In this document: piece by piece, positions 3,198 through 20,097 of the stretch
Layout of the letters: each line of letters begins with the position of its first letter
Position numbering within the stretch: position 1 is the first letter of the stretch
From: a virus
IMG/VR virus record: IMGVR_UViG_3300044492_000138
Location: 1-39,893 of that record
Strand: one strand, 5' to 3'
DNA length: 39,893 bases
The notes under the pieces: generated by a model
Databases searched by the model: none
What the model saw: the letters and a program-made list of their open reading frames with translations, nothing else
What the model was told of the DNA's origin: nothing
Made by a program: the position numbers and the translations under genes

Positions 3198-3602
3198 ATG
3201 AGATATCGGAAGCTGCCAGTCGAGATTGACGCTACGCAGTGGTTTAAGAACGGCGATCACCCAAATGACGGTGTTGGTCAGGAGGCTCGCGATCCGTTCA
3301 ACGACGGAACATACATTAGGATCGAGGGCGCCATAGTTCGATTTTTTTGTGTGCCCGGCAGTGACAAGATGAAATGCAAATATTGCGGCACGTCGATGAA
3401 GATGCATGGGTGGATTGACACGAACGAGGGTGGGCACATCGTTTGCCCTGGTGATTTTGTGATTACGGGCGTCAAGGGTGAGGTGTATCCTTGCAAGCCT
3501 GATATTTTTGCTCTGACTTATGAGGCGGTCGATGGTCCGGAAAGCAACGAAGCCCGCGGCCCCGATATCATTAGTGGATACGACGCACGCGCCAAGCCCT
3601 AA
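3198..3602 (+). CDS. PGDYG-family phage protein
   Basis: 134 residues with the layout I associate with the PGDYG family: N-terminal MRYRKLPVEIDATQW and C-terminal CPGDFVITGVKGEVYPCKPDIFALTYE. A CKYC pair and a further Cys between them suggest metal binding (C...C, H...C). The family is common in phages and its function is unknown. GAGAG lies just upstream of the ATG. The 3' end overlaps the small-terminase candidate by 71 bp in another frame. Confidence 0.85.
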   Translation: MRYRKLPVEIDATQWFKNGDHPNDGVGQEARDPFNDGTYIRIEGAIVRFFCVPGSDKMKCKYCGTSMKMHGWIDTNEGGHIVCPGDFVITGVKGEVYPCKPDIFALTYEAVDGPESNEARGPDIISGYDARAKP

Positions 3603-3885
3603 GCCACTCGCCGAAGGCGCGGCCGAATCTCCGCTCGATTATATGCTGCGGATCATGCGCGATCCGACATGCGACCCGAAGCGGCGAGATTCGTTCGCGC
3701 TCAAGGCGCTTCCGTATTGTCACAAACTATTAGATGGCGGAAAAAATGGCAAAGAAGGCAAAGACGCGAACGATAATCAAGGGCCGCAGGGTCCTACTAT
3801 TAGAAAGTTTGGTGAGGCAGTGCCTAGTCAATCAAATCACTCTGATGGCCAGCCTCAGGGATCACATGAGGATGGTGCACGGTAG
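3532..3885 (+). CDS. terS: Probable terminase small subunit
   Basis: 117 residues from the ATG at 3532, inside the end of the PGDYG gene; an in-frame ATG at 3520 is less likely. The centre, SPLDYMLRIMRDPTCDPKRRDSFALKALPYCHKLL, matches a motif I know from small phage proteins upstream of terL and annotated as terminase small subunits (DNA recognition for packaging). The last 45 residues are polar, Gly/Asn/Gln-rich and probably disordered, and are overlapped in the +1 frame by another open reading frame. The large subunit follows 1.3 kb downstream after a run of very small genes. Confidence 0.6.
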   Translation: MVRKATKPAAPISLVDTTHAPSPKPLAEGAAESPLDYMLRIMRDPTCDPKRRDSFALKALPYCHKLLDGGKNGKEGKDANDNQGPQGPTIRKFGEAVPSQSNHSDGQPQGSHEDGAR

Positions 3886-3967
3886 GGGGCATGCCGAGCA
3901 GATGATGTTTCGTTTTGATGAGACAATTAAGCAGACGGCCAACATGTTGACGAGGCCGCGAGAATGA
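3734..3967 (+). CDS. Possible out-of-phase overlapping gene
   Basis: 77 residues in the +1 frame relative to the small terminase, sharing 152 bp with its 3' end and continuing 82 bp beyond its stop. The C-terminal half (ESLVRQCLVNQITLMASL, then FDETIKQTANMLTRPRE) reads like an amphipathic helical protein. The stop overlaps the next gene start as ATGA, the spacing used throughout this operon. It could be a separate small protein or the product of a +1 frameshift in the small terminase. It could also be chance. Confidence 0.4.
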   Translation: MAEKMAKKAKTRTIIKGRRVLLLESLVRQCLVNQITLMASLRDHMRMVHGRGHAEQMMFRFDETIKQTANMLTRPRE

Positions 3968-4248
3968 GAACCGAATATCGGCAGCAGTTGCCGCCGCTCT
4001 GGTTTTGGCAAGATGGGCCGATGCAATATCACTTTGTCGAGTGTGTCGCCTCGGTGGAGATTGGGCGCGAGGTTGACCCGAAGCTTTGCATGCTTCACGG
4101 GAATGCAAAAAACTGTACCGCCATACACGCCTGCCTGATTGCGGGTTGCCCATATGCGAAAGCGAGGCTGAAGCAGTGGGAAGATCAGTATGATGAGCAA
4201 GCGAGAGCTTTTCGACGTGGCGGCCGAAGTGAAGGGCGAGACGGATAG
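3964..4248 (+). CDS. Hypothetical Cys/His-containing protein
   Basis: 94 residues starting at an ATGA overlap. HFVECVASVEIGREVDPKLCMLHG, then CTAIHACLIAGCPYAK, places six Cys and several His in a pattern compatible with a small metal-binding fold. The C-terminus is basic (RAFRRGGRSEGRDG) and overlaps the next small gene out of phase by 59 bp. Function unknown. Confidence 0.75.
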   Translation: MRTEYRQQLPPLWFWQDGPMQYHFVECVASVEIGREVDPKLCMLHGNAKNCTAIHACLIAGCPYAKARLKQWEDQYDEQARAFRRGGRSEGRDG

Positions 4249-4369
4249 GGCGTGGCGGCTGTTCGACGGCACCAAAACGGCATGGGTGCCGAAGTCGCAG
4301 GCAGAAGACAACGGCGACGGCACTTTCACCATGCCAATTTGGCTTGCCAAAGATAAGGGTTTTCTATGA
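4190..4369 (+). CDS. Small phage protein (LFDDG...WLPKS-type)
   Basis: 59 residues; a second ATG at 4193 is equally possible. The sequence ends with WRLFDGTKTAWVPKSQ, then EDNGDGTFTMPIWLAKDKGFL, a layout I recognise from many short phage proteins of unknown function. It is framed by overlaps: the start lies inside the previous gene and the stop overlaps the next start as ATGA. Below the usual length cut-off, so easy to miss. Confidence 0.75.
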   Translation: MMSKRELFDVAAEVKGETDRAWRLFDGTKTAWVPKSQAEDNGDGTFTMPIWLAKDKGFL

Positions 4370-4566
4370 GTCCAGCGCAATCGGCGGAGCTGCCGGAAAA
4401 GCTTGAAGCTATCTTGCAGGAGGTTGCTCGCAAGGCGCGCGAGGGTGATCAAGGGCCGTACTATCTGGAGGTTTGCAAGATCATTATAAACGTCGAGCGC
4501 TATCTAGATCGATCGCCCGACAAAGAGACCGTAGAGGTGCGAAACTTAGGAGAGATTCCGCTATGA
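4366..4566 (+). CDS. Small helical hypothetical protein
   Basis: 66 residues. Mostly alpha-helical and acidic (ELPEKLEAILQEVARKAREGD, then LEVCKIIINVERYLDR). Starts and ends with 4-bp ATGA overlaps, so it is translationally coupled to both neighbours. No recognised family. Confidence 0.75.
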   Translation: MSPAQSAELPEKLEAILQEVARKAREGDQGPYYLEVCKIIINVERYLDRSPDKETVEVRNLGEIPL

Positions 4567-4694
4567 AATGGCTATCGCATTTTCTGTGTTGGCTCGGCTC
4601 CCATGATTGGCGCAACATGGATGGTGTGTGTTGCGAGTGCGGCTACCGCGATCCCCTTTGGCATGACGGGGATTTCGGAGGCGGCGCGACGTGA
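4563..4694 (+). CDS. DUF1660-like mini zinc protein
   Basis: 43 residues starting at an ATGA overlap. The pattern LCWLGSHDW...CCECGYR fits the DUF1660 prophage-protein layout (LCxLxGHxW...CxxCG), where His and Cys probably bind one zinc ion. It resembles the protein at 4825-4941, suggesting a tandem paralogue pair. The stop overlaps the following GTG start. Confidence 0.7.
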   Translation: MKWLSHFLCWLGSHDWRNMDGVCCECGYRDPLWHDGDFGGGAT

Positions 4695-4828
4695 CCAAGC
4701 GCAAGGCAGTCGGCTACGAAGTTCGATGTAGCCGCAGGCTTGCGGAAGCGCTCGGCGCCTATATCGGGGTCTATAGGGGTCGAAACGTGCTGCATTGGAA
4801 CGGCGGTTTTCTGTGGTGGGTGATATGA
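4691..4828 (+). CDS. Small basic hypothetical protein
   Basis: 45 residues from a GTG that overlaps the previous stop (GTGA). Basic N-terminus (TKRKAVGYEVRCSRRLAEALGAYIGVYRGRNVL) and a hydrophobic, Trp-rich end (FLWWVI). The stop overlaps the next start. Support comes mainly from the unbroken chain of overlaps; no family recognised. Confidence 0.5.
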   Translation: MTKRKAVGYEVRCSRRLAEALGAYIGVYRGRNVLHWNGGFLWWVI

Positions 4829-4941
4829 TCATAGGGCGGCGCTTCCGCGACGTACTCTGCAAGCTCCTGGGGTGTGACTACTCGTCAACAACTCCGCAAA
4901 TCTGCCTGCGGTGTGGGCGAGAACGCGGGGGTGCATGGTGA
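4825..4941 (+). CDS. DUF1660-like mini zinc protein, second copy
   Basis: 38 residues, MIIGRRFRDVLCKLLGCDY, then ICLRCGRERGG. It has the same order as the protein at 4563-4694 (LCxLxxxD[WY]...CxxCG), with Cys in place of the first-knuckle His. ATGA overlap at the start; its stop overlaps the next start codons. Probably a zinc knuckle; role unknown. Confidence 0.65.
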   Translation: MIIGRRFRDVLCKLLGCDYSSTTPQICLRCGRERGGAW

Positions 4942-5192
4942 GGGACTATAAGAACGTCTACCCCGGCAATCCGACCACTGGCCCCATGCCGCCACGCAAG
5001 GAGAGCACGTGGCAAGATCCAGACCATCCCGGCAACAAGATCAGGCCGAAAGTGCGATGCGTCGGTTGCGGTAAGCTTGGCTGCATCACGGCGTGGGGGC
5101 CATGGTGCTTTGAGTGCAACGTCCCGCGCATGACCAGGATCGATGCGCGGATAGAAGAGATGGCCAAATCAATCGGCTTGTCGCGGTGGTAA
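4935..5192 (+). CDS. Zinc-ribbon hypothetical protein
   Basis: 85 residues from the ATG at 4935; a GTG at 4938 would give the GTGA overlap used elsewhere here. CVGCGKLGC and CFECN supply a four-to-five Cys zinc ribbon in the middle, after a Pro-rich, polar N-terminus. The C-terminus is helical (RIDARIEEMAKSIGLSRW). It directly precedes terL; whether it takes part in packaging is unknown. Confidence 0.75.
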   Translation: MVRDYKNVYPGNPTTGPMPPRKESTWQDPDHPGNKIRPKVRCVGCGKLGCITAWGPWCFECNVPRMTRIDARIEEMAKSIGLSRW

Positions 5193-5206
5193 GATGACGG
5201 CTTGCA

Positions 5207-6604
5207 ATGACTGACATTCAACTTCCGTTCAATTGGGAGCCGCGAAAGCCGCAAATGAAACTGTGGCTCGCGCTCGAAAACGGCATTCGCCGCGCGATGA
5301 TGGTTGCCCATCGGCGATGGGGAAAAGACGAGGTTGGATTGCATCACACGGCTTGCGCGATGCACGATCGCGTCGGGACCTACTGGCATTGTCTGCCGGA
5401 ATACGCGCAAGCAAAGAAAGCGATTTGGGACGCGGTCAATCCGCGCACGGGACGGCGGCGCATCGATGAGGCGTTCCCGAAAGAGCTACGCGATTCGACG
5501 CGCGCCGAAGACATGTTTATTCGCATGAAGAACGGCAGCACGTGGCAGGTGATTGGCTCCGATCGCTTTACCAGTCTCGTCGGCGCTGGCGTGTGCGGTA
5601 TCGTGTTTTCGGAGTGGGCGAAAGCCAATCCGGCGGCATGGGCCTATCTCGCTCCAATGCTCGTCGAAAATAATGGATGGGCGCTGTTCATTACCACGCC
5701 GCAGGGTCGCAACCACGCGAAGCGGCTGTACGATATGGCCAAGGCTGATCCGGCAAACTGGTACGTCGAGCTGCAAACTGTCGTCGACTCCGGAATGATC
5801 AATTTCGATACGATTGAGCAGCAGCGGAAGGAATACCGCGCACTCTATGGCGATGAGGCGGGCGACGCGCTCATACAGCAGGAATTCTATTGTGACTTTA
5901 ACGCGCCAGTGCTCGGCGCATTCTGGGGTAAGGCAATCGCGGACGTTGAAGGCAACAAACAAGTTGCCGAAGTGGCAATCGATCGTGAAAGGCCAGTTCA
6001 TGCAATGTGGGGGCTTGGTGATGACGCTGCGGTGGGGTTGTGGTGCTTCCAGATTTTGCCGGATCGGCTCAACATGGTTGACTATACCGAGTCCCATATT
6101 GGTGACATCGAGGCATTTGCTTCGTGGCTCAAGGCTCGCGGTTATCGCGGTCTAGATTACTTGCCGCACACCGCAAAAATGCGTGATTTCAGTCCGCAGC
6201 CAACGCGGACCAGGTTAGAAACTTTGCGCAAGCTCGGACGGCAGCCAATCTTGGTCCCGAACGTCAAGCTTGTCGACAGAATCAACGCGGGGCGCGTCAC
6301 GCTCGCGAGCTGTCATTTCGACGAGCGGCGCACAGAGCGCGGGCTTGATTGCCTCAAGGCGTTCTGTGCCGAATGGGATGAGGAGGCGAACGTGCCGCGG
6401 CAGACGCCAAAACATAATTGGGCGAGCTATGCGGCTTTCGCGTTTGGGCACCTCTCGGTGACTTGGCAGTTGCCGCAAAAAAAGGAGCTGGATAAGATCA
6501 AGGAGGCGCACGAGAAACTCTACCGGGAAGGAATTCACGTGACGGGCATACGCGTGAACGATCTCATTAAACAGAAGACGCAGCGGGCGAGACCGGGGTA
6601 TTAG
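5207..6604 (+). CDS. terL: Terminase large subunit with substituted nuclease site
   Basis: 465 residues. The ATPase half is intact: Walker A-like AHRRWGKD (34-41), Walker B-like GIVFSEWA (131-138, the SE variant known in this family) and coupling motif ITTPQGRNH (162-170). It powers DNA translocation through the portal. The C-terminal RNase H-like nuclease domain aligns by eye with family members (VHAMWGLG, YLPHTAKMR, TRLETLRKLG, HNWASYAAFAFGHL). All three catalytic Asp are replaced: Gly269 for the Asp of WDLG, Thr322 for the Asp of PHD, Phe411 for the Asp of SHAADAF. Headful or site-specific cutting may therefore need another nuclease. Confidence 0.92.
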   Translation: MTDIQLPFNWEPRKPQMKLWLALENGIRRAMMVAHRRWGKDEVGLHHTACAMHDRVGTYWHCLPEYAQAKKAIWDAVNPRTGRRRIDEAFPKELRDSTRAEDMFIRMKNGSTWQVIGSDRFTSLVGAGVCGIVFSEWAKANPAAWAYLAPMLVENNGWALFITTPQGRNHAKRLYDMAKADPANWYVELQTVVDSGMINFDTIEQQRKEYRALYGDEAGDALIQQEFYCDFNAPVLGAFWGKAIADVEGNKQVAEVAIDRERPVHAMWGLGDDAAVGLWCFQILPDRLNMVDYTESHIGDIEAFASWLKARGYRGLDYLPHTAKMRDFSPQPTRTRLETLRKLGRQPILVPNVKLVDRINAGRVTLASCHFDERRTERGLDCLKAFCAEWDEEANVPRQTPKHNWASYAAFAFGHLSVTWQLPQKKELDKIKEAHEKLYREGIHVTGIRVNDLIKQKTQRARPGY

Positions 6605-6605
6605 C

Positions 6606-6740
6606 ATGGATGAGATAGAGCGATTCTTTAACGATCACCCAGGACTGGAATTCGTGGCATCGACGGTTGTTGCCGCGATCGTAGCTATAGTCACGGTTCC
6701 AGTCGTGTTTTGGATCATAAGCCTATTCGGGGGATGGTAA
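6606..6740 (+). CDS. Single-pass small membrane protein
   Basis: 44 residues, begun just after terL. A short acidic N-terminus (MDEIERFFNDHPG) precedes one long hydrophobic segment (about 17-41, VASTVVAAIVAIVTVPVVFWIISLF). The stop overlaps the exonuclease start (TAATG). Function unknown; an unlinked holin-like or inner-membrane role is possible. Confidence 0.65.
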   Translation: MDEIERFFNDHPGLEFVASTVVAAIVAIVTVPVVFWIISLFGGW

Positions 6741-7201
6741 TGCGGTTCTATCTCGATACCGAATTCAACGGCCATGGCGGCGAGCTGATCTCGATGGCGC
6801 TCGTGTCTGAGTTGACATATATGGGCGCGGGCGTGAGGGGTTCGATCGAGTGGTATGGGGCAAGGCGAATTAAATCGCCGATCGCGCCATGGGTGGCGGA
6901 GAATGTGATGCCTGTGTTGTCAACGCGTCAATTGTCTCCGGAGGACTTCAGAAGTGAGTTTGGCACGTTCATATCGCGCTACGAAAATTGCCAGATTATC
7001 TGCGATTGGCATACGGACGCGGAACACTTCTGCGCAATGCTCGCCGGCCGCGATTATGGGTCGAGCCTCGATTTTCCGTGCATGATCCGGATTCTCAAAA
7101 CGCCACCGGGAGAGCCGGCGCCGGCTGCGATACCGCACAACGCCTTGCACGATGCCAGAACGCTTCGCGACTGGCACGAAGCTCAATTACTCGCGGCCTA
7201 A
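6740..7201 (+). CDS. DEDD-type 3'-5' exonuclease, Rv2179c-like
   Basis: 153 residues from the ATG at 6740, which overlaps the upstream stop. Motif I is YLDTEF (Asp6, Glu8), motif II is in CDWHTDAEHF (about 89-93), and motif III is PHNALHDAR (His133, Asp138). This fits the DnaQ-like fold of the Rv2179c 3'-5' exoribonuclease family, which degrades single-stranded RNA overhangs using two metal ions. The substrate here could be RNA or DNA. It lies directly behind terL. Confidence 0.75.
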   Translation: MRFYLDTEFNGHGGELISMALVSELTYMGAGVRGSIEWYGARRIKSPIAPWVAENVMPVLSTRQLSPEDFRSEFGTFISRYENCQIICDWHTDAEHFCAMLAGRDYGSSLDFPCMIRILKTPPGEPAPAAIPHNALHDARTLRDWHEAQLLAA

Positions 7202-7207
7202 TCGGCG

Positions 7208-7687
7208 ATGTCCCGCCGGGGGAAACAGGCCAGCGGTTACAAGCATGGCCATACGCACATGCGCAAAAACGGGACCGTCCATCGGTCTCCGACCTACATA
7301 TCTTGGCAATCGATGTGCTCGCGGTGCGAGCAGGACTCGCATCCCTGGTTCCATGCCTACGGAGGACGTGGTATAGCGATTTCGCCCAGGTGGCGGGGGA
7401 AGGACGGTTTTAAGAATTTCCTCGCGGACATGGGCGAGCGGCCCGCCGGTCTGACGTTAGAGCGGAAAGACGTTGAGGGCGACTATCGGAAGGGGAATTG
7501 CGAATGGGCGGATTTGAGCACGCAACGGCTAAATCAGCGCGCACTGCCATCCTTGAGCAAGCCCGCGCGCTCATCGCGCAAGAATCCAAAGCGCAAGCCG
7601 AAGGTGCAAAAACGGAAACAGCCGCGCACAATCCGTGCGCCTGCCCGCGATGTGGTCGACCAGTCAAATCGGAGCATGCGTTTATGA
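7208..7687 (+). CDS. HNH-type phage endonuclease-like protein
   Basis: 159 residues. The core, residues 27-110, follows a very common phage pattern: SPTYISWQSMCSRC, YGGRGI, SPRW...FKNFLADMGERPAGLTLERKD, GDYRKGNCEWAD and Q..NQR. Proteins with this pattern are often annotated as HNH or homing-type endonucleases; the exact catalytic residues are not certain. The last 48 residues are Lys/Arg-rich, share their DNA with the next gene in another frame and may be disordered. Its place between terL and the portal is where HK97-type phages keep an HNH packaging nuclease. Confidence 0.7.
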   Translation: MSRRGKQASGYKHGHTHMRKNGTVHRSPTYISWQSMCSRCEQDSHPWFHAYGGRGIAISPRWRGKDGFKNFLADMGERPAGLTLERKDVEGDYRKGNCEWADLSTQRLNQRALPSLSKPARSSRKNPKRKPKVQKRKQPRTIRAPARDVVDQSNRSMRL

Positions 7688-7806: not shown

Positions 7807-10134
7807 ATGGCGCCTTACGATCAAGTTGAAGCCGATGATGCGGAAGATTCATACTCCGCAGAGGGTGCTACCAAAAAAGGGCCGCGGGCGACCAAGGATG
7901 ATTGCAAACGCTATTGGCGGGAAATCGAGCGCTATGAGAAGGCGGCCAAGGAGTGGATCGTCTGCGGCGACAAGATTATAAGGCGCTACGAAGACGGCGA
8001 CCACGGGCAGCAAACAGAGCGGCGCTTTGCGCTTCTCTGGGCGAACGTGGAGACGTTCAAACCCGCGATCTATGCCAAGCTTCCGGTCTGTCTGATTGAG
8101 CGGCGATATCGCGACCGCGATCCGATTGGGCGCGTTGTTGCCGACATCATGGAGCGCTGCACAAACACAACGCTCGATATCAGTTGTGTGGACGAAACGC
8201 TGCGGCTTTGTCGTGACGATACGCTGTTGCCGGGGCGCGGCACCGCATGGTGCCGGTATGAGCCGAAATTTGAGACGGTCGAGTCTCAGGTGATCGATAT
8301 CAAAACGAGAAAGTTGACGGTTCAGAAACATGAGAAGCTGAAGAGCGAAAAGATTGTTGTCGATTATGTCTACTGGAAGTTTTTCGGACACAACGTCTCG
8401 CGCACGTGGTCAAACGTCTGGCTGGTCTGGCGCATCTGCCACTATGAGAAGTGCGACGCCATCGAGAAGTTTGGCGACAAGATCGCCGACAAGCTCAAGT
8501 ATACGTCGCGGCGCCAGGGGGATGAGGACAACGAGGCGGAGAGCAATTGTTGCGAGATTTATGAGGTGTGGGACAGCCGCAAGGGGCTGATGTCTTGCAT
8601 TACGAAGTCTTGGGAGAACGATGAGGCGATGGACTCCGGTCCGCCGCCGATTAATTTTTCGCGATTCTTTCCATGTCCGGAGCCGGCATACGCAACCAAA
8701 ACCAGCAAATCGCTCATTCCCACGCCCGATTATGAGTACTATCGCGATCAGGCAAAGGATATTGATGATCTAACAGCCAAAATTTCCAACATGCTCGATT
8801 GGCTGCGGGTCAAGGCCTTCATTCCGCGCGGCCCATCAAGTGGTGGAGCTGACGCAATCGAGTCGATGGTTACTGACAGCACTAACGACGACATTTTCAT
8901 TGAAGTGGGATCGTGGGCGGAGTGGGTCGAGAAGGGCGGGGCGAAGTCGCTCATTGACTGGCTGCCAACCGACATGATCGTGAAGACGCTGCAACAGGCA
9001 ATTGCGGTGCGCAACCAACTGATTCAGGACGTTTACCAAATCACGGGCATCTCTGACATTATGCGCGGTCAGAGCGATCCGGAAGAGACCTACGGCGCGC
9101 AAGATATCAAGCAAAACGTCGGATCGCGCCGCACGCGCAATCGCAAGGATGATTTTGCGAGATTCTGCGAGGACTTGTGCCGATTGATCGCCGAAGCGAT
9201 TGCGGAAAATTTCCAGCCGGAAACTCTGGCGGAAATGAGCGGCTATCAGTATACTCCCGGTCAGCCAACGCCAAGCGGCGAACCTCAGCCCCCCCAACCC
9301 GCCGCCGCTCCGTTGGCTGCTGTGCCGCCGCCCGGTGGCGCCCCGCAAGAGTTGCCGCCGGGCGGTAGTCCTACTTTTGGAATGGGGCATAACCAAGGAC
9401 CACCGGGGCCGTTGCCCGATGCATTGCCGGGTGCGCCTCCCGCGCCGGCTCCGCCGATCGTTCCCCAACAAGCACCCATGGCGTTCGGTGACGATGCTGT
9501 GGAGCTGATGCACAACGATCGCATGCGGACATTTCGAACCAAGGTCGAGACTGACTCAACCACGCAACCCGATGACGATCGCGAGAAGTCGCGCCGCATC
9601 GAGTTCCTCAACACGATCGCTGCCTATCTCGAAAAAGCGACGGTGGCCATACAGCAGGCGCCGGACCTTGGGCCGGCGATCAAAGAGTTTCTTTTGTTCA
9701 CGGCGCGCGGCTTCCGAGTTGGCCGTAGCCTTGAGTCGGTGATCGAGGATGCGATTGACAAGCTCGTAATGGACGCGCGCCAGCCGAAGCCGGACAAGAT
9801 CGACGCGGTATCGAAAGCCAAGATGGCGCAAGCCGAGCAGCAACACCAGCAAGTCTTGAAGCAGGGCGAGGAGCAATTCAAACAGAAGAGCGTGGAGAAC
9901 GATCAGCAGCATCAACAAAAGATGGATCAGTCTGACAAGCAATTCGGTCAACAGATGGCTTTCGAGCGAGAGAAGGGCGCAAAAGAAATCGCCGTAAAAC
10001 AAGAGGAGGGAAGGCAGGATCGTATAGACGAGCTGATGAATGCCGACAACATCGAGCAACTGGCAAAAAAGGTTGCGGCAATCATGGATAAGGCTAAGGT
10101 GCCAGTTCCGCAACAGAGGGTAGAGCAAACATGA
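7807..10134 (+). CDS. Portal protein
   Basis: 775 residues, the length expected for P22-like portals. The N-terminal 30-480 region matches podoviral portals (RYWREIERYEKAAKEWIVCGDKIIRRY, FALLWANVETFKPAIYAKLP, then DVYQITGISDIMRGQSDPEETYGAQ). The portal forms the dodecameric ring at one capsid vertex and docks the terminase. Residues about 490-550 are an unusual Pro/Gly/Ala-rich linker. The C-terminal 110 residues are a Gln/Lys/Glu-rich coiled coil, comparable in place with the P22 portal barrel. The stop overlaps the next start as ATGA. Confidence 0.9.
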   Translation: MAPYDQVEADDAEDSYSAEGATKKGPRATKDDCKRYWREIERYEKAAKEWIVCGDKIIRRYEDGDHGQQTERRFALLWANVETFKPAIYAKLPVCLIERRYRDRDPIGRVVADIMERCTNTTLDISCVDETLRLCRDDTLLPGRGTAWCRYEPKFETVESQVIDIKTRKLTVQKHEKLKSEKIVVDYVYWKFFGHNVSRTWSNVWLVWRICHYEKCDAIEKFGDKIADKLKYTSRRQGDEDNEAESNCCEIYEVWDSRKGLMSCITKSWENDEAMDSGPPPINFSRFFPCPEPAYATKTSKSLIPTPDYEYYRDQAKDIDDLTAKISNMLDWLRVKAFIPRGPSSGGADAIESMVTDSTNDDIFIEVGSWAEWVEKGGAKSLIDWLPTDMIVKTLQQAIAVRNQLIQDVYQITGISDIMRGQSDPEETYGAQDIKQNVGSRRTRNRKDDFARFCEDLCRLIAEAIAENFQPETLAEMSGYQYTPGQPTPSGEPQPPQPAAAPLAAVPPPGGAPQELPPGGSPTFGMGHNQGPPGPLPDALPGAPPAPAPPIVPQQAPMAFGDDAVELMHNDRMRTFRTKVETDSTTQPDDDREKSRRIEFLNTIAAYLEKATVAIQQAPDLGPAIKEFLLFTARGFRVGRSLESVIEDAIDKLVMDARQPKPDKIDAVSKAKMAQAEQQHQQVLKQGEEQFKQKSVENDQQHQQKMDQSDKQFGQQMAFEREKGAKEIAVKQEEGRQDRIDELMNADNIEQLAKKVAAIMDKAKVPVPQQRVEQT

Positions 10135-13146: not shown

Positions 13147-13365
13147 ATGATGGGCTTATTTGATTCGTTCTCTCCTGAATTTCCAGTGGAAAATGACAAA
13201 ATGGCAACAGAGCGTGTGTATCTCGATAGGCTGAAAGTCATAGACCAAATGCGCGATACGTCGGAAGCGCACCGGCTTGCCGATCAGGTGCTTTGCGATA
13301 TCGCTAAGCAGGCAGGCTATGGCGATGTCGTCGAGCAATGGCTATACATCAAAAAACACTACTGA
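13147..13365 (+). CDS. Small acidic hypothetical protein
   Basis: 72 residues, GGAGCGGA upstream. Mostly helical (ERVYLDRLKVIDQMRDTSEAHRLADQVLCDIAKQAG). The stop lies just before the RusA gene start. No family recognised. Confidence 0.7.
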   Translation: MMGLFDSFSPEFPVENDKMATERVYLDRLKVIDQMRDTSEAHRLADQVLCDIAKQAGYGDVVEQWLYIKKHY

Positions 13366-13376
13366 GGCGTGCGCGA

Positions 13377-13931
13377 ATGCGAGTAATGGCGGGCGAGCAA
13401 ATCCACATCGGAGAACTCGTTGTCATTCGCGATGGCGTCGCCTTTCGGGCGCGGGTGGAGACGGGCGGAATCCAGATTCGGTTGCCGGTTCCGCCATCGC
13501 TCAACAACATGTTTCCGAGCAAGCGCGGCAAGAGGGTGGCGGCGGTGCCGGCCGGTCCGGCCACCATATCGCGCGATGCTTACAGGGCTGCGGTCGCGGG
13601 CGCGAAAGAGAAGATGGGCGGGCGCGTCAAGAGCAAGGAATACGAGAATTGGATCAGGCTTGCCGATGCGGCCTATATGCAGCAGCGGGTAACTGTGCCG
13701 GGGCTCGCGCCGCGGCTCCGAGTTGCCGCCGGTTCAACGTTTTCAGTCGACATTTGGATGCCTAAGATCAGAGGCGACCTTGACAACCGAATCAAGGCAA
13801 TACTTGATTTTTTGGTCCGAGTGGGCTTAACGTTGGACGATCGGCACGCGCGGCGGGTCTGTATTGAAGAGGATTTGAGCCTCGATCGGGAATGCGTCGT
13901 CATAGTCGCACAGAGGAAAGCCAATGTTTAA
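13377..13931 (+). CDS. rusA: RusA-like Holliday junction resolvase
   Basis: 184 residues from the ATG at 13377 with GAGGCG upstream; 13386 is an alternative. RusA hallmarks: LPVPPSLNNMFPSKRGKR (36-53), and the acidic metal site GDLDNRIKAILDFL (Asp134, Asp136, Asp144) followed by LTLDDRHARRV (Asp154/155). RusA homodimers cut four-way DNA junctions; for a phage this frees packaged DNA of branches. A roughly 30-residue N-terminal extension (IHIGELVVIRDGVAFRARVE) precedes the domain. It sits among head genes, next to the scaffold gene, which it overlaps by 8 bp. Confidence 0.85.
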   Translation: MRVMAGEQIHIGELVVIRDGVAFRARVETGGIQIRLPVPPSLNNMFPSKRGKRVAAVPAGPATISRDAYRAAVAGAKEKMGGRVKSKEYENWIRLADAAYMQQRVTVPGLAPRLRVAAGSTFSVDIWMPKIRGDLDNRIKAILDFLVRVGLTLDDRHARRVCIEEDLSLDRECVVIVAQRKANV

Positions 13932-15285
13932 GCTACTTTCTGGCACTGCTCCTTTCTATCGGCCCGATGATGGCAACGGTTCCGGCGGTGATGCTCCGGT
14001 GGTCGAGAGCATCCGTTCGGACATAGAGGCGGCTTACGACGAGATTGAATCGGGGGGCGGCGATGGTGGCGCTGAAGGGCTGGGTGGTCGCGAGCCATCG
14101 GAAACGGCGGAGCCTGCGGAGCGAGCAGGGCAAGCGAGGCGCGATGGCCAGCAAGCGAAAGAAGGCGATGAAGCGGGCGACCGCGGCGACGGCCGAACCA
14201 AGCGCGGACAATTCGCAGCAAAACCCGGTGACAAGCCCGCTGGTGACAAATCCGCACAAGGCGACAAACCCGTATTGGACGCCGCAGCCAGGGCTGCGGC
14301 CGATGCCGCGCGCGCGGCTGCTGATCCTAATGCGGCAACTTTGGGAGCAGTGCCGCCGGTTGGGTTCTCGCCGCATAGCAAGGCGCAGTGGGAGAATTTC
14401 CGGCGTGCATTCCCGACCATAGCGGCAGACATTGCGCGGCGCGAGACTGAGACCAATCAGGGCTTGGCCGCGCTTCGCGATTTCAAAGACCTGAAGCCCT
14501 ATGCGGAAATGGCGCAACGGAGCAACACGACGCTCTCCGCCGCGCTGCATCGATTCACAAGTTTGGAAACGCTCGCGCGGCGCTCGCCATCACACGGGCT
14601 CGTTTCCGTCTGCTCAAGTCTAGGCATGCCGAAGGCGGAAGCGCTTGAAGCGCTCCAAAGGGCTGCACAGCTTATCGGCGGCGATATTCAGATTCCGTCA
14701 GCCCATCAACCGGCTGGCGATCCTGCGAACGGTGGCGCACGTCCGGGCGATCAAAAGCCCGATCCGCTATTGTCCGCGCTCGCGCCCATCTTCAAGCCAA
14801 TCTTGGACGAGCTGGGTTCACTTCGAAAATATGTTGCCGATGCGTCAACAGCCAATCAAACGGCTCTTGAATCGACGCTCGACAATGCGATTGTTACGTT
14901 TGCATCCGACCCGAAAAACGTCTTCTTTGAACACGTGGAAGAGGTGATCACAAATCTCTTTGCGTCAAAGTTGGTGCCATTGACGGGAAACCATGCGGCG
15001 GACCTTCGCGTAGCTTACGACTTGGCTTGCCGAATGCATCCGGAGGTTTCCGAAGCGCTAATCGAACAGCGGCTCGGGACAACGGGCGCCGCCAAGGCCA
15101 AGCGGGACCAGGACATTGCGGAGCGTGCGCGCCGTGCTGGCCGGTCTCTCGCCGGTTCCTCGTCGCCTGATATCGTGCGCGATCCTCCGCCACGACGGCA
15201 TGACGGCGTGAAGCCTTTGGATGCTGAACGCAGGAGTGATGTTGAGTCCGCCTACGAGCAAGTGGCGGGGTCAGCCTCCTATTAA
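13924..15285 (+). CDS. Probable scaffolding / capsid assembly protein
   Basis: 453 residues. Directly upstream of the major capsid gene. A Gly/Asp/Glu-rich, low-complexity N-terminal third (to about 140) precedes helical segments typical of phage assembly proteins (SKAQWENFRRAFPTIAADIARRETETNQGLAALRDFKDL, then LARRSPSHGLVSVCSSLGM) and an RSDVESAYEQ C-terminus. Similar sequences occur next to capsid genes in other podoviruses. Assignment rests on position, charge and helicity. Confidence 0.65.
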   Translation: MFKLLSGTAPFYRPDDGNGSGGDAPVVESIRSDIEAAYDEIESGGGDGGAEGLGGREPSETAEPAERAGQARRDGQQAKEGDEAGDRGDGRTKRGQFAAKPGDKPAGDKSAQGDKPVLDAAARAAADAARAAADPNAATLGAVPPVGFSPHSKAQWENFRRAFPTIAADIARRETETNQGLAALRDFKDLKPYAEMAQRSNTTLSAALHRFTSLETLARRSPSHGLVSVCSSLGMPKAEALEALQRAAQLIGGDIQIPSAHQPAGDPANGGARPGDQKPDPLLSALAPIFKPILDELGSLRKYVADASTANQTALESTLDNAIVTFASDPKNVFFEHVEEVITNLFASKLVPLTGNHAADLRVAYDLACRMHPEVSEALIEQRLGTTGAAKAKRDQDIAERARRAGRSLAGSSSPDIVRDPPPRRHDGVKPLDAERRSDVESAYEQVAGSASY

Positions 15286-15321: not shown

Positions 15322-16314
15322 ATGCCAGCTAATCCGAACTTCGACGACATCGTAACGACAACGTTGCGGTTGCGTGAAGGCAAGACAGCCGACAACGCGA
15401 CCAAGACAATGGCGTTGCTTGATCGGTTGCGCCGAAAAGGAAAGGTGCAACCGGGTGGCGGCGGGCGGACCATCGTTCAAGAGCTTGAAGTTGCGTTGAA
15501 CCCGTGGGGTGGGTGGTACGCCGGCTTTGATCTCTTGAGCACCAATGCGTTCGAACCGTTTTCGGCCGCCGAATATGATTGGAAGCAGGCTTACGTGCCT
15601 GCGGTGTGGAATGGTCGCGAAAAACTCATCAACCAAGGCAAGTGGGCGACCATCAATCTAATCGAGGGGCGACTCAAAAACTCAGAAAAGAGCCTCTACG
15701 ATCTCGTCGCGCAAGGTGTCTACTCTGACGGTACGAGCTTCGGCGGAAAGCAAATTTCCGGCCTTGGTCTCTATGTCGTCACGGGCAACACCACTGGAAC
15801 CATCGGCGGCATTGATCGCGCGCTCAACACGTTCTGGCGCAATCAAATCGTGTCCGTCTCGGTTTCGGCCGTGACGCCGAACCTTGCGACCAACAACCCA
15901 TCTGCCTTCCTCGTGGCCATGAACTCGCTCGCGATTGCTTGCACTCGCGGCACCGATCGGCCGGATTTGTGGATCGGCGATGGGCTTTCCTATGCGCTCT
16001 ATCTCAACAGCTTGCAGCCGATTCAGCGCATCACGAATCCGGAGCTTGGTGGGTACGGCTTCACCAATCTGAAGTACTACGGTGTCGGCGGTGATAGTGA
16101 TGTGGTGCTTGATAACGGCTATGCGCCGGCCAAGACCATGTTCGCGCTCAACACCGACTACATCTATCTGCGCCCGCACGAGGATCGGAACTTCGTGCCC
16201 ATCGGCGGAGACCGCGTTCCTGTCAACCAGGACGCGACGCTCCGCTACATTGGCGTCATGTTGAATCTTTGCCTCGCGAACGCCGCGTTGCAAGGGCTCA
16301 TGAAAGAAACGTAA
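15322..16314 (+). CDS. Major capsid protein
   Basis: 330 residues, the normal size for an unprocessed HK97-fold capsid protein of this podovirus group. Typical features: the N-terminal FDDIVTTTLRLREGKTADNATKTMALLDRLRRKG, then NPWGGWYAGFDLLSTNAFEPFSAAEYDWKQAYVPAVWNG and the C-terminal FVPIGGDRVPVNQDATLRYIGVMLNLCLANAALQGLM. It forms the icosahedral shell. It is followed by a decoration-like gene and a hairpin terminator that closes the head operon. Confidence 0.9.
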   Translation: MPANPNFDDIVTTTLRLREGKTADNATKTMALLDRLRRKGKVQPGGGGRTIVQELEVALNPWGGWYAGFDLLSTNAFEPFSAAEYDWKQAYVPAVWNGREKLINQGKWATINLIEGRLKNSEKSLYDLVAQGVYSDGTSFGGKQISGLGLYVVTGNTTGTIGGIDRALNTFWRNQIVSVSVSAVTPNLATNNPSAFLVAMNSLAIACTRGTDRPDLWIGDGLSYALYLNSLQPIQRITNPELGGYGFTNLKYYGVGGDSDVVLDNGYAPAKTMFALNTDYIYLRPHEDRNFVPIGGDRVPVNQDATLRYIGVMLNLCLANAALQGLMKET

Positions 16315-18273: not shown

Positions 18274-20097
18274 ATGTCAACAATGATGGATGGCGCGGCA
18301 TTGTTGAAGATGCCGAAGGCTGACCCCTTGGAGGGGATAGCGAAGTCTGTCCCGATGGCCGATCTCATCACACCGGGCTATGCCGAACAAAACCGGCTGT
18401 TGCATGAGATGGAACCGAGCTATGGCACCTCCGGGCAAAAATGGGGGCGCTACGTCGAGCGGCTGATTGAGGGCGAGCGCTTCAAGACGATCCTCGATTA
18501 TGGATGCGGGAAGGGAACGCTTGCCGCGGTGCTGCCGGGTTACAAGATCGCAGAGTATGACCCGTGCATCGCCGGCAAGGATGATCGCCCGCAGCCGGCC
18601 GAACTCGTTGTGTGTACCGATGTCTTGGAGCATATCGAGCCATCGCTGATTGACAACGTTTTGGCGGACTTGCGGGCGCTCACGCAAAAGAAACTGTTTT
18701 TCAACATCGCGACGCGCCCGGCAAAGAAGAGCTTACCGGACGGTCGCAACGCGCACATTCTGTTGCAGCCGCCGATTTGGTGGTTTGAGAAACTGAAAGA
18801 GCACTTCACGTTGACGCTCTGGGAAGAGCGCGACGGGCTTGTCTATGGAGAAGGGTTACCGGGTGGTGGACTCGTCGAGCTGGCGCGTAGTGGGGGCTAT
18901 GTGCGGCGGACGCGTAAAGAGCGCCGCAGAGTTGACGCGGAATTGCAGCCACTGGCGAACATGGTGCGCAAGGCAACGGCGAAATACGGCGATGCCCTGT
19001 CGCGCATCAACACAGTCGAGCAATGGGAACCATGGGACAATACGACGGCTGATATGTTGGTCGCCGGCAAGGTGCTGGAATATCTGAGCGCTGCAGTTGC
19101 GCCGGGCGGCTCCGAGCTTGAGCGTGGAATGACGGCGCTGACTAATCAGTGCCGTTGTGCGGTGTGCGCGATCGTGCAACTCGATCATTTGCGCGGCCCC
19201 GATTGGTGGCGGAAGTTTTTCGAGCGCTATCTGGTCATCAGCGAATGGACGATTGTGCACGGGCTTTTGTATTGCATCGGCGGGCCAAGCTCGCGTGTGC
19301 AGGGCGTCAAAACTGTGATGGGCGTCAAAGACGATGCTCTTTGGGAAAACGTTCGCGCCAACATTTCGCGCACGTCAAGGCGCATCGTGGCGCGGCCCGC
19401 GCACAAGCGTATTGCGATCCTTGTTTGCTATGGCCCATCGCTCAAGTCGGAAGGTGCTATCGAAGCGATCAAGAACGAAAGGGCGGGCAGCGAAACGGAT
19501 ATTATCAGCGTTTCTGGTTCGCATGATTTTCTGATCGGGTGCGGTGTCACGCCAGACATCCACATTGAGTGCGATCCGCGGCCACACAAGGCGGATAACA
19601 TCGCGCGCGGTCGTGCCGGTGTCGACTATCAGATAGCGTCGTGCGTGCACGAAAAAGTCTTTGAGAAACTCGCCGGCTGTGACGTTTCGCTCTGGCACGT
19701 TTCAATGCAGGACTTCATGGTGCCGCTTGTCGATCAGTACCATGAGAAACCGGACACGGTCATTTCCGGCGGTGGCAGTGTCGGGTTGCGCTCGATACCG
19801 TTGCTCTATGCGCAAGGCTATCGGGACTTTTCCGTGCATGCCATGGATTGCTCATTTGCGGCGGAGGGTGTCGAGCAATGGGCCGGCAAGCACGCCGGCA
19901 AAGTGCAAGAGGTGACGACGTGCAAAGTCGGGATCGGCGACAATGCGCGCGTATTCTATACCTCGCCGGTCCTGATGACCTACGCAACCAACTTCATGGA
20001 CATGATGCGGAAAACCGGGGATTGCACTTTCCGTGTTTATGGTGACGGCCTGTTGGCCGCGATGATCCGATTCCATTACGGGTCAGCGAGTGAGTGA
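18274..20097 (+). CDS. Methyltransferase fused to DUF115/MptE-like domain
   Basis: 607 residues. N-terminal class I SAM-dependent methyltransferase: ILDYGCGKGTLAAVLPG (73-89, SAM-binding motif I), CTDVLEHIEP (114-123). The middle (220-370) is helical and of unknown class. Residues about 375-600 carry a MAF/DUF115 domain: KRIAILVCYGPSLKSEG (GPSL loop), DIISVSGSHDFLIGCGVTPDIHIECDPRP and GGGSVGLRSIPLLYAQGYRDFSVHAMDCSF. DUF115 occurs in motility-associated flagellin glycosylation factors and in MptE. With the adjacent glycosyltransferase this suggests a phage glycan-modifying pathway. Confidence 0.85.
   Translation: MSTMMDGAALLKMPKADPLEGIAKSVPMADLITPGYAEQNRLLHEMEPSYGTSGQKWGRYVERLIEGERFKTILDYGCGKGTLAAVLPGYKIAEYDPCIAGKDDRPQPAELVVCTDVLEHIEPSLIDNVLADLRALTQKKLFFNIATRPAKKSLPDGRNAHILLQPPIWWFEKLKEHFTLTLWEERDGLVYGEGLPGGGLVELARSGGYVRRTRKERRRVDAELQPLANMVRKATAKYGDALSRINTVEQWEPWDNTTADMLVAGKVLEYLSAAVAPGGSELERGMTALTNQCRCAVCAIVQLDHLRGPDWWRKFFERYLVISEWTIVHGLLYCIGGPSSRVQGVKTVMGVKDDALWENVRANISRTSRRIVARPAHKRIAILVCYGPSLKSEGAIEAIKNERAGSETDIISVSGSHDFLIGCGVTPDIHIECDPRPHKADNIARGRAGVDYQIASCVHEKVFEKLAGCDVSLWHVSMQDFMVPLVDQYHEKPDTVISGGGSVGLRSIPLLYAQGYRDFSVHAMDCSFAAEGVEQWAGKHAGKVQEVTTCKVGIGDNARVFYTSPVLMTYATNFMDMMRKTGDCTFRVYGDGLLAAMIRFHYGSASE

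Follow-up and report, generated by a model that had tools for sequence, protein, structure and literature searches.

Acids of the nuclease active site are reported to be conserved in the large terminase subunits (TerLs) of all phages (PMC9958956), and the domain that carries them has been described as a fully functional nuclease in all phages other than phi29 (PMC7672431). In the phi29 packaging ATPase gp16, the C-terminal domain has an RNase H fold but lacks the catalytic residues (PMC7672431), and phi29 systems possess no small terminase (TerS) and package protein-capped unit genomes (PMC7672431, PMC9410871). HK97 TerL keeps D302, D388 and D471, and the HNH protein gp74 promotes cos cleavage together with this terminase (PMC9410871). 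Mutants of the three metal ligands of G20c TerL show the lowest nuclease activity (PMC5389553). T4 mutants in the conserved acids retain ATPase activity and lose cleavage; they package pre-cut linear DNA but fail with circular DNA (PMC9958956). Outside the phi29 group, cutting by TerL is treated as universal. A strictly conserved natural exception would demonstrate that a packaging motor need not be tied to its cutter, would provide a system in which to probe other roles of the nuclease domain in translocation and would also allow the triggering of headful or cos cutting to be studied. Among the papers covered by a literature search of limited reach, none described a TerL without nuclease function in a phage of the TerS/TerL type (outside phi29).

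The stretch of DNA analyzed here (the window) is a single IMG/VR virus record of 39,893 bases from an uncultured tailed phage. No end repeats were seen in the window, so the record is probably an incomplete fragment. The portal and major capsid proteins group the phage with Bradyrhizobium phage ppBjS10J-1, Rhizobium phage RHph_I3_18 and the Myxococcus phages Mx8 and Mx9. terL is part of a packaging module containing a probable TerS gene and a portal gene (Table 1). About 1.3 kb (3886-5206) with three small open reading frames (3964, 4366 and 4911) separates TerS from terL in the window, unlike in relatives, where the two genes adjoin directly or overlap. The CxxC-rich open reading frame at 4911-5192 is absent from L001, a second record treated below. 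On the minus strand, an open reading frame at 1-675 is truncated by the start of the record; judged by sequence alone, its product carries an HTH and resembles regulators of replication or transcription. The structural region also encodes a 607-residue protein (18274-20097) whose residues 71-179 match phrog_24759, annotated as a methyltransferase.

Table 1. Features of the packaging and head region of the window and of its TerL protein (nucleotide positions in the window unless residues are indicated).
Feature	Position	Strand	Remarks
Small terminase (TerS), probable	3520-3885	+	phrog_641, E 1.1e-6; homologues directly 5' of terL in relatives
terL, large terminase subunit, 465 aa	5207-6604	+	phrog_2 match
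Walker A region RRWGKD	TerL residues 36-41		intact
Walker B FSE	TerL residues 134-136		intact
TerL nuclease domain	about TerL residues 231-420		without catalytic acids
Gly269 codon GGG	6011-6013	+	motif I position
Asp272-Asp273	6020-6025	+	beta1-beta2 turn
Ala274 codon	6026-6028	+	
Thr322 codon ACC	6170-6172	+	motif II (PHD) position
Motif III	6416-6439	+	Asn404, Tyr408 and Phe411 replace Asp, His/Asp and Asp
Asn404 codon	6416-6418	+	motif III
Tyr408 codon	6428-6430	+	motif III
Phe411 codon TTC	6437-6439	+	motif III
DEDDh-type 3'-5' exonuclease	6740-7201	+	phrog_2259, annotated RNase H; motifs DTEF / D..E / HNALHDA read from sequence
HNH endonuclease	7208-7687	+	phrog_374/3377, E about 1e-29
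Portal protein	7807-10134	+	phrog_12082, E 3.8e-151
RusA-like Holliday junction resolvase	13338-13931	+	phrog_34, E 2.5e-9
Probable head gene	13924-15285		between RusA-like gene and major capsid gene
Major capsid protein	15322-16314	+	phrog_9953, E 1.6e-86; used to place the phage

Active-site residues and predicted fold of TerL

The ATPase motifs of TerL are intact, as an initial sequence-only reading of the window had stated. The N-terminal domain shows the ASCE, Walker A and catalytic Walker B glutamate features, and Lys40 and Glu136 are present as in every homologue with a residue at these positions. In Foldseek searches, an AlphaFold2 model based on a 75-sequence alignment (pLDDT 88) matched the full TerLs of D6E, T4 and Sf6. 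The ATPase part matched D6E, T4 and the P74-26 ATPase, while the nuclease domain matched the isolated nuclease domains of G20c (target TM 0.62) and SPP1 (0.60). Based on these matches to full TerLs and nuclease domains, the C-terminal domain is predicted to retain its RNase H fold despite the lost acids.

The sequence-only reading had pointed out Gly269, Thr322 and Phe411 at positions where relatives carry the three canonical aspartates, and it had named and located all three correctly. To judge this loss we compared TerL with 307 other distinct homologues drawn from phage records, IMG/VR and GTDB genomes. Aspartate is found in 301/301 of those with a residue at column 269 and in 299/299 at column 322. 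The claimed loss therefore stands for these two family-invariant columns. Phe411 alone is a weaker argument since column 411 varies, with Asp in 256 homologues and Ser (25), Ala (10), Lys (3) or Thr (2) in another 40. Column 408 (His in 266, Asp in 21 and Asn in 11; His or Asp in 287 of 298) is the stronger third-site column and is occupied by Tyr in the window. Column 274 is Asp in 267 of 301 homologues and Ala in the window, and column 404 is Asp in 264, Asn in 28 and Asn in the window. The window departs from the family at 6 of the 24 nuclease-domain columns with at least 85% conservation (R252Q, D269G, D274A, D322T, Y386F and D404N), four of which are acids of the active-site region. Conserved metal-binding acids are consequently missing from all motif positions (Gly269, Thr322, Asn404, Tyr408 and Phe411), and the original observation was correct and understated.

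The spacing between W268 and W279 equals that of relatives, with no indels in the motif I region, and a profile-based alignment with P22 TerL places the PHD motif of that protein on Thr322 and the DD..D motif on columns 407/408 and 411. The columns had thus been aligned correctly and misalignment is ruled out. No intermediate losses were found in the 307 other homologues; the sequences of L069, L102, L273 and L381 end before the nuclease motifs and were left out of the judgement on loss. Scanning genome contigs with a single protein returned no matches, and a profile scan returned 80 loci, all with both aspartates. The profile scans were built on ATPase-domain patterns; in the L318 scan DWVPHDAK and VDDPMAIW were added to these, which biases its matches towards an intact motif II.

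Motif III of the L068 TerL (HKEHSHAAAALCYA) has Lys at 404 and Ala at 411 while the Asp269 and Asp322 columns are intact, indicating that motif III acids vary more in this family than those of motifs I and II. In L039, L119, L127 and related prophage-type TerLs, motif III reads K[DN]WAEH with Ser at 411. In this subclade the residue preceding His is Glu instead of the usual Ser, a different local solution.

Given its TerL architecture, fold and gene order but missing catalytic ligands, we classify the window protein, as judged from its sequence, as a nuclease-deficient TerL variant.

A second record and selection on terL

L001, a 23 kb record with 94% nucleotide identity to the window over the terL region, contains the only other sequence with changed residues at 269 and 322, and every change is common to both records. 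The two terL genes differ at 60 nucleotides, 54 of them at third positions. Only three amino-acid changes result, all conservative and none at the lost active-site positions. As L001 shares the changes despite divergence concentrated at third positions, chance and error are excluded, and sequencing error, already thought unlikely from the sequence alone, is ruled out.

Pairwise NG86 estimates from these two sequences give a dN/dS of 0.013 for terL (dS about 0.2), the lowest of 13 genes. The nuclease domain alone yields 0.0055/0.197, a dN/dS of about 0.028, and values for other genes are 0.032 (capsid), 0.046 (portal), 0.135 (HNH), 0.245 (exonuclease) and 0.284 (RusA). In the TerL tree, window and L001 are located within a clade of nine with a support of 0.998, and the other seven members, among them L338 (56% TerL identity), have intact sites. 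Stem lengths from an earlier tree were 1.00 for the nuclease domain and 0.51 for the ATPase domain, compared with a ratio of 1.27 between the total lengths in the family, which fits a burst of nuclease-domain change followed by renewed constraint. By these comparisons, the loss of the nuclease site is derived and fixed in a working protein. Evasion of Avs3 defence was considered as a driver of the loss and is not claimed.

L314, L315 and L316 share the capsid family (70%), and only the nuclease domain of their TerL (open reading frame at L315:4742) matches the window (query residues 237-415, 32%). The ATPase half resembles another TerL lineage, suggesting a domain swap. In L325, matches to the portal protein are spread across three reading frames (L325:1261-4600), and the gene is evidently interrupted or misassembled.

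A proposed translocation-only motor and candidate cutting enzymes

We propose that TerL moves DNA but cannot cut it and that the cut is made in trans, a reading we consider probable by analogy with the G20c and T4 mutants. The ATPase would drive DNA into the capsid as a translocation-only motor. The nuclease domain would no longer bind the two catalytic metals, and its RNase H fold may be kept for structural roles, for example DNA gripping or portal docking. TerL itself most likely does not cleave, again by analogy with the mutants. Lost metal ligands, intact ATPase motifs and very strong selection together lend good support to the earlier proposal of translocation without cutting. The presence of a TerS gene indicates that the genome probably still needs to be cut from a concatemer, and the cuts at the start and end of packaging would then be made by another protein.

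That another nuclease cuts had also been suggested, and this is the best reading of a locus in which two nuclease genes, encoding the DEDDh exonuclease and the HNH endonuclease, sit exactly between terL and the portal gene. It falls short of proof, as HNH genes from the same family are found near intact TerLs in L318 and L047. The HNH protein is the leading candidate for cutting in trans because it keeps the residues conserved across its family, is clearly constrained and has a precedent in HK97 gp74, whose type of adjacency to the terminase genes it shares. The RusA-like resolvase would come second. The exonuclease alone cannot make the packaging cut and could only trim ends. Among the loci compared, the window and L001 are the only ones with this gene next to terL, and it is absent from 12 of 12 other related records searched whole, some of which are fragments.

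The packaging endonuclease may have moved off TerL to the adjacent HNH subunit, leaving a motor of the TerS/TerL type whose driving and cutting functions lie on separate proteins. Cutting in trans as such is probable, but we advance the role of HNH only tentatively because the HNH correlation is not clean. The intact TerLs of L318 and L047 weaken any explanation by correlation from an HNH gene beside terL, and RHph_I3_18, also with an intact TerL, contains several annotated HNH genes and a RusA. Insertion of genes between terL and portal is likewise weakened as a unique feature, gaps of at least 0.5 kb being common in the family.

Alternatively, the cutter could be a host enzyme or a phage nuclease encoded beyond the record, with the nearby HNH and exonuclease genes as unrelated passengers. 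HNH genes are often mobile and occur beside intact TerLs, the exonuclease gene evolves quickly and is common to unrelated phages such as Caulobacter phiCbK, and further nucleases may lie outside a record that is likely a fragment. We nevertheless consider this unlikely in view of the clear constraint on the HNH gene and its location in the packaging module of both records.

The sequence-only reading had offered new acidic residues as a second possibility. Asp272 and Asp273, with the conserved Asp292 and perhaps others, would bind metal in a rebuilt site and TerL would still cut, possibly weakly or by nicking. Asp272 and Asp273 are the only plausible acids for this role: column 272 is acidic in no homologue and column 273 in 12%, the turn acid D300 of G20c is located near metal A (PMC5389553), and the nuclease domain is strongly constrained. 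However, neither motif II (Thr322) nor motif III (Asn404, Tyr408 and Phe411) has gained a replacement acid, and in G20c D300 is dispensable while single changes at the real ligands strongly reduce activity (PMC5389553). The suggestion thus fares poorly beyond the turn acids, and a rebuilt site appears quite unlikely.

Packaging of unit-length genomes as in phi29, which would make cutting unnecessary and leave the nuclease domain as a vestige, is likewise quite unlikely. In its favour, gp16 is a known case of such a vestige in a TerL-like motor, and none of the genes identified in the window points to replication that forms concatemers. The window nevertheless has a TerS gene, its capsid and portal relatives possess intact TerLs, and PHROGs revealed no protein-primed polymerase or terminal protein in this probably incomplete record. 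An artefact, be it sequencing error, misalignment or a decaying remnant, is hardly credible even for a loss seen in two records only, given that the reading frame is open, that a second record with 6% nucleotide divergence has identical residues at these positions and that terL, like the portal and capsid genes, is under purifying selection.

Comparison with described packaging systems

The window TerL belongs to the same two-domain family as the TerLs of RHph_I3_18 (48%), ppBjS10J-1 (45%) and L338 (56%), with shared Walker motifs and similar portal and capsid modules. Unlike the window protein, all three keep both invariant aspartates. In RHph_I3_18 and ppBjS10J-1 the portal gene directly follows terL, whereas nuclease genes lie in between in the window.

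Similar to phi29 gp16, the window TerL combines a packaging ATPase with a nuclease domain devoid of catalytic acids. The C-terminal domain of gp16 has also lost secondary-structure elements while the window TerL is predicted to have a full-size fold, and the TerS gene of the window has no counterpart in phi29-type systems. HK97 resembles the window in having an HNH gene near its terminase genes. The window TerL differs from that of HK97 in lacking the catalytic acids, and the HNH protein of the window was assigned at the level of PHROG membership, to phrog_374/3377. G20c TerL and T4 gp17 mutants share with the window protein the loss of metal-ligand acids, but they were made in the laboratory whereas the window TerL represents a natural, conserved state.
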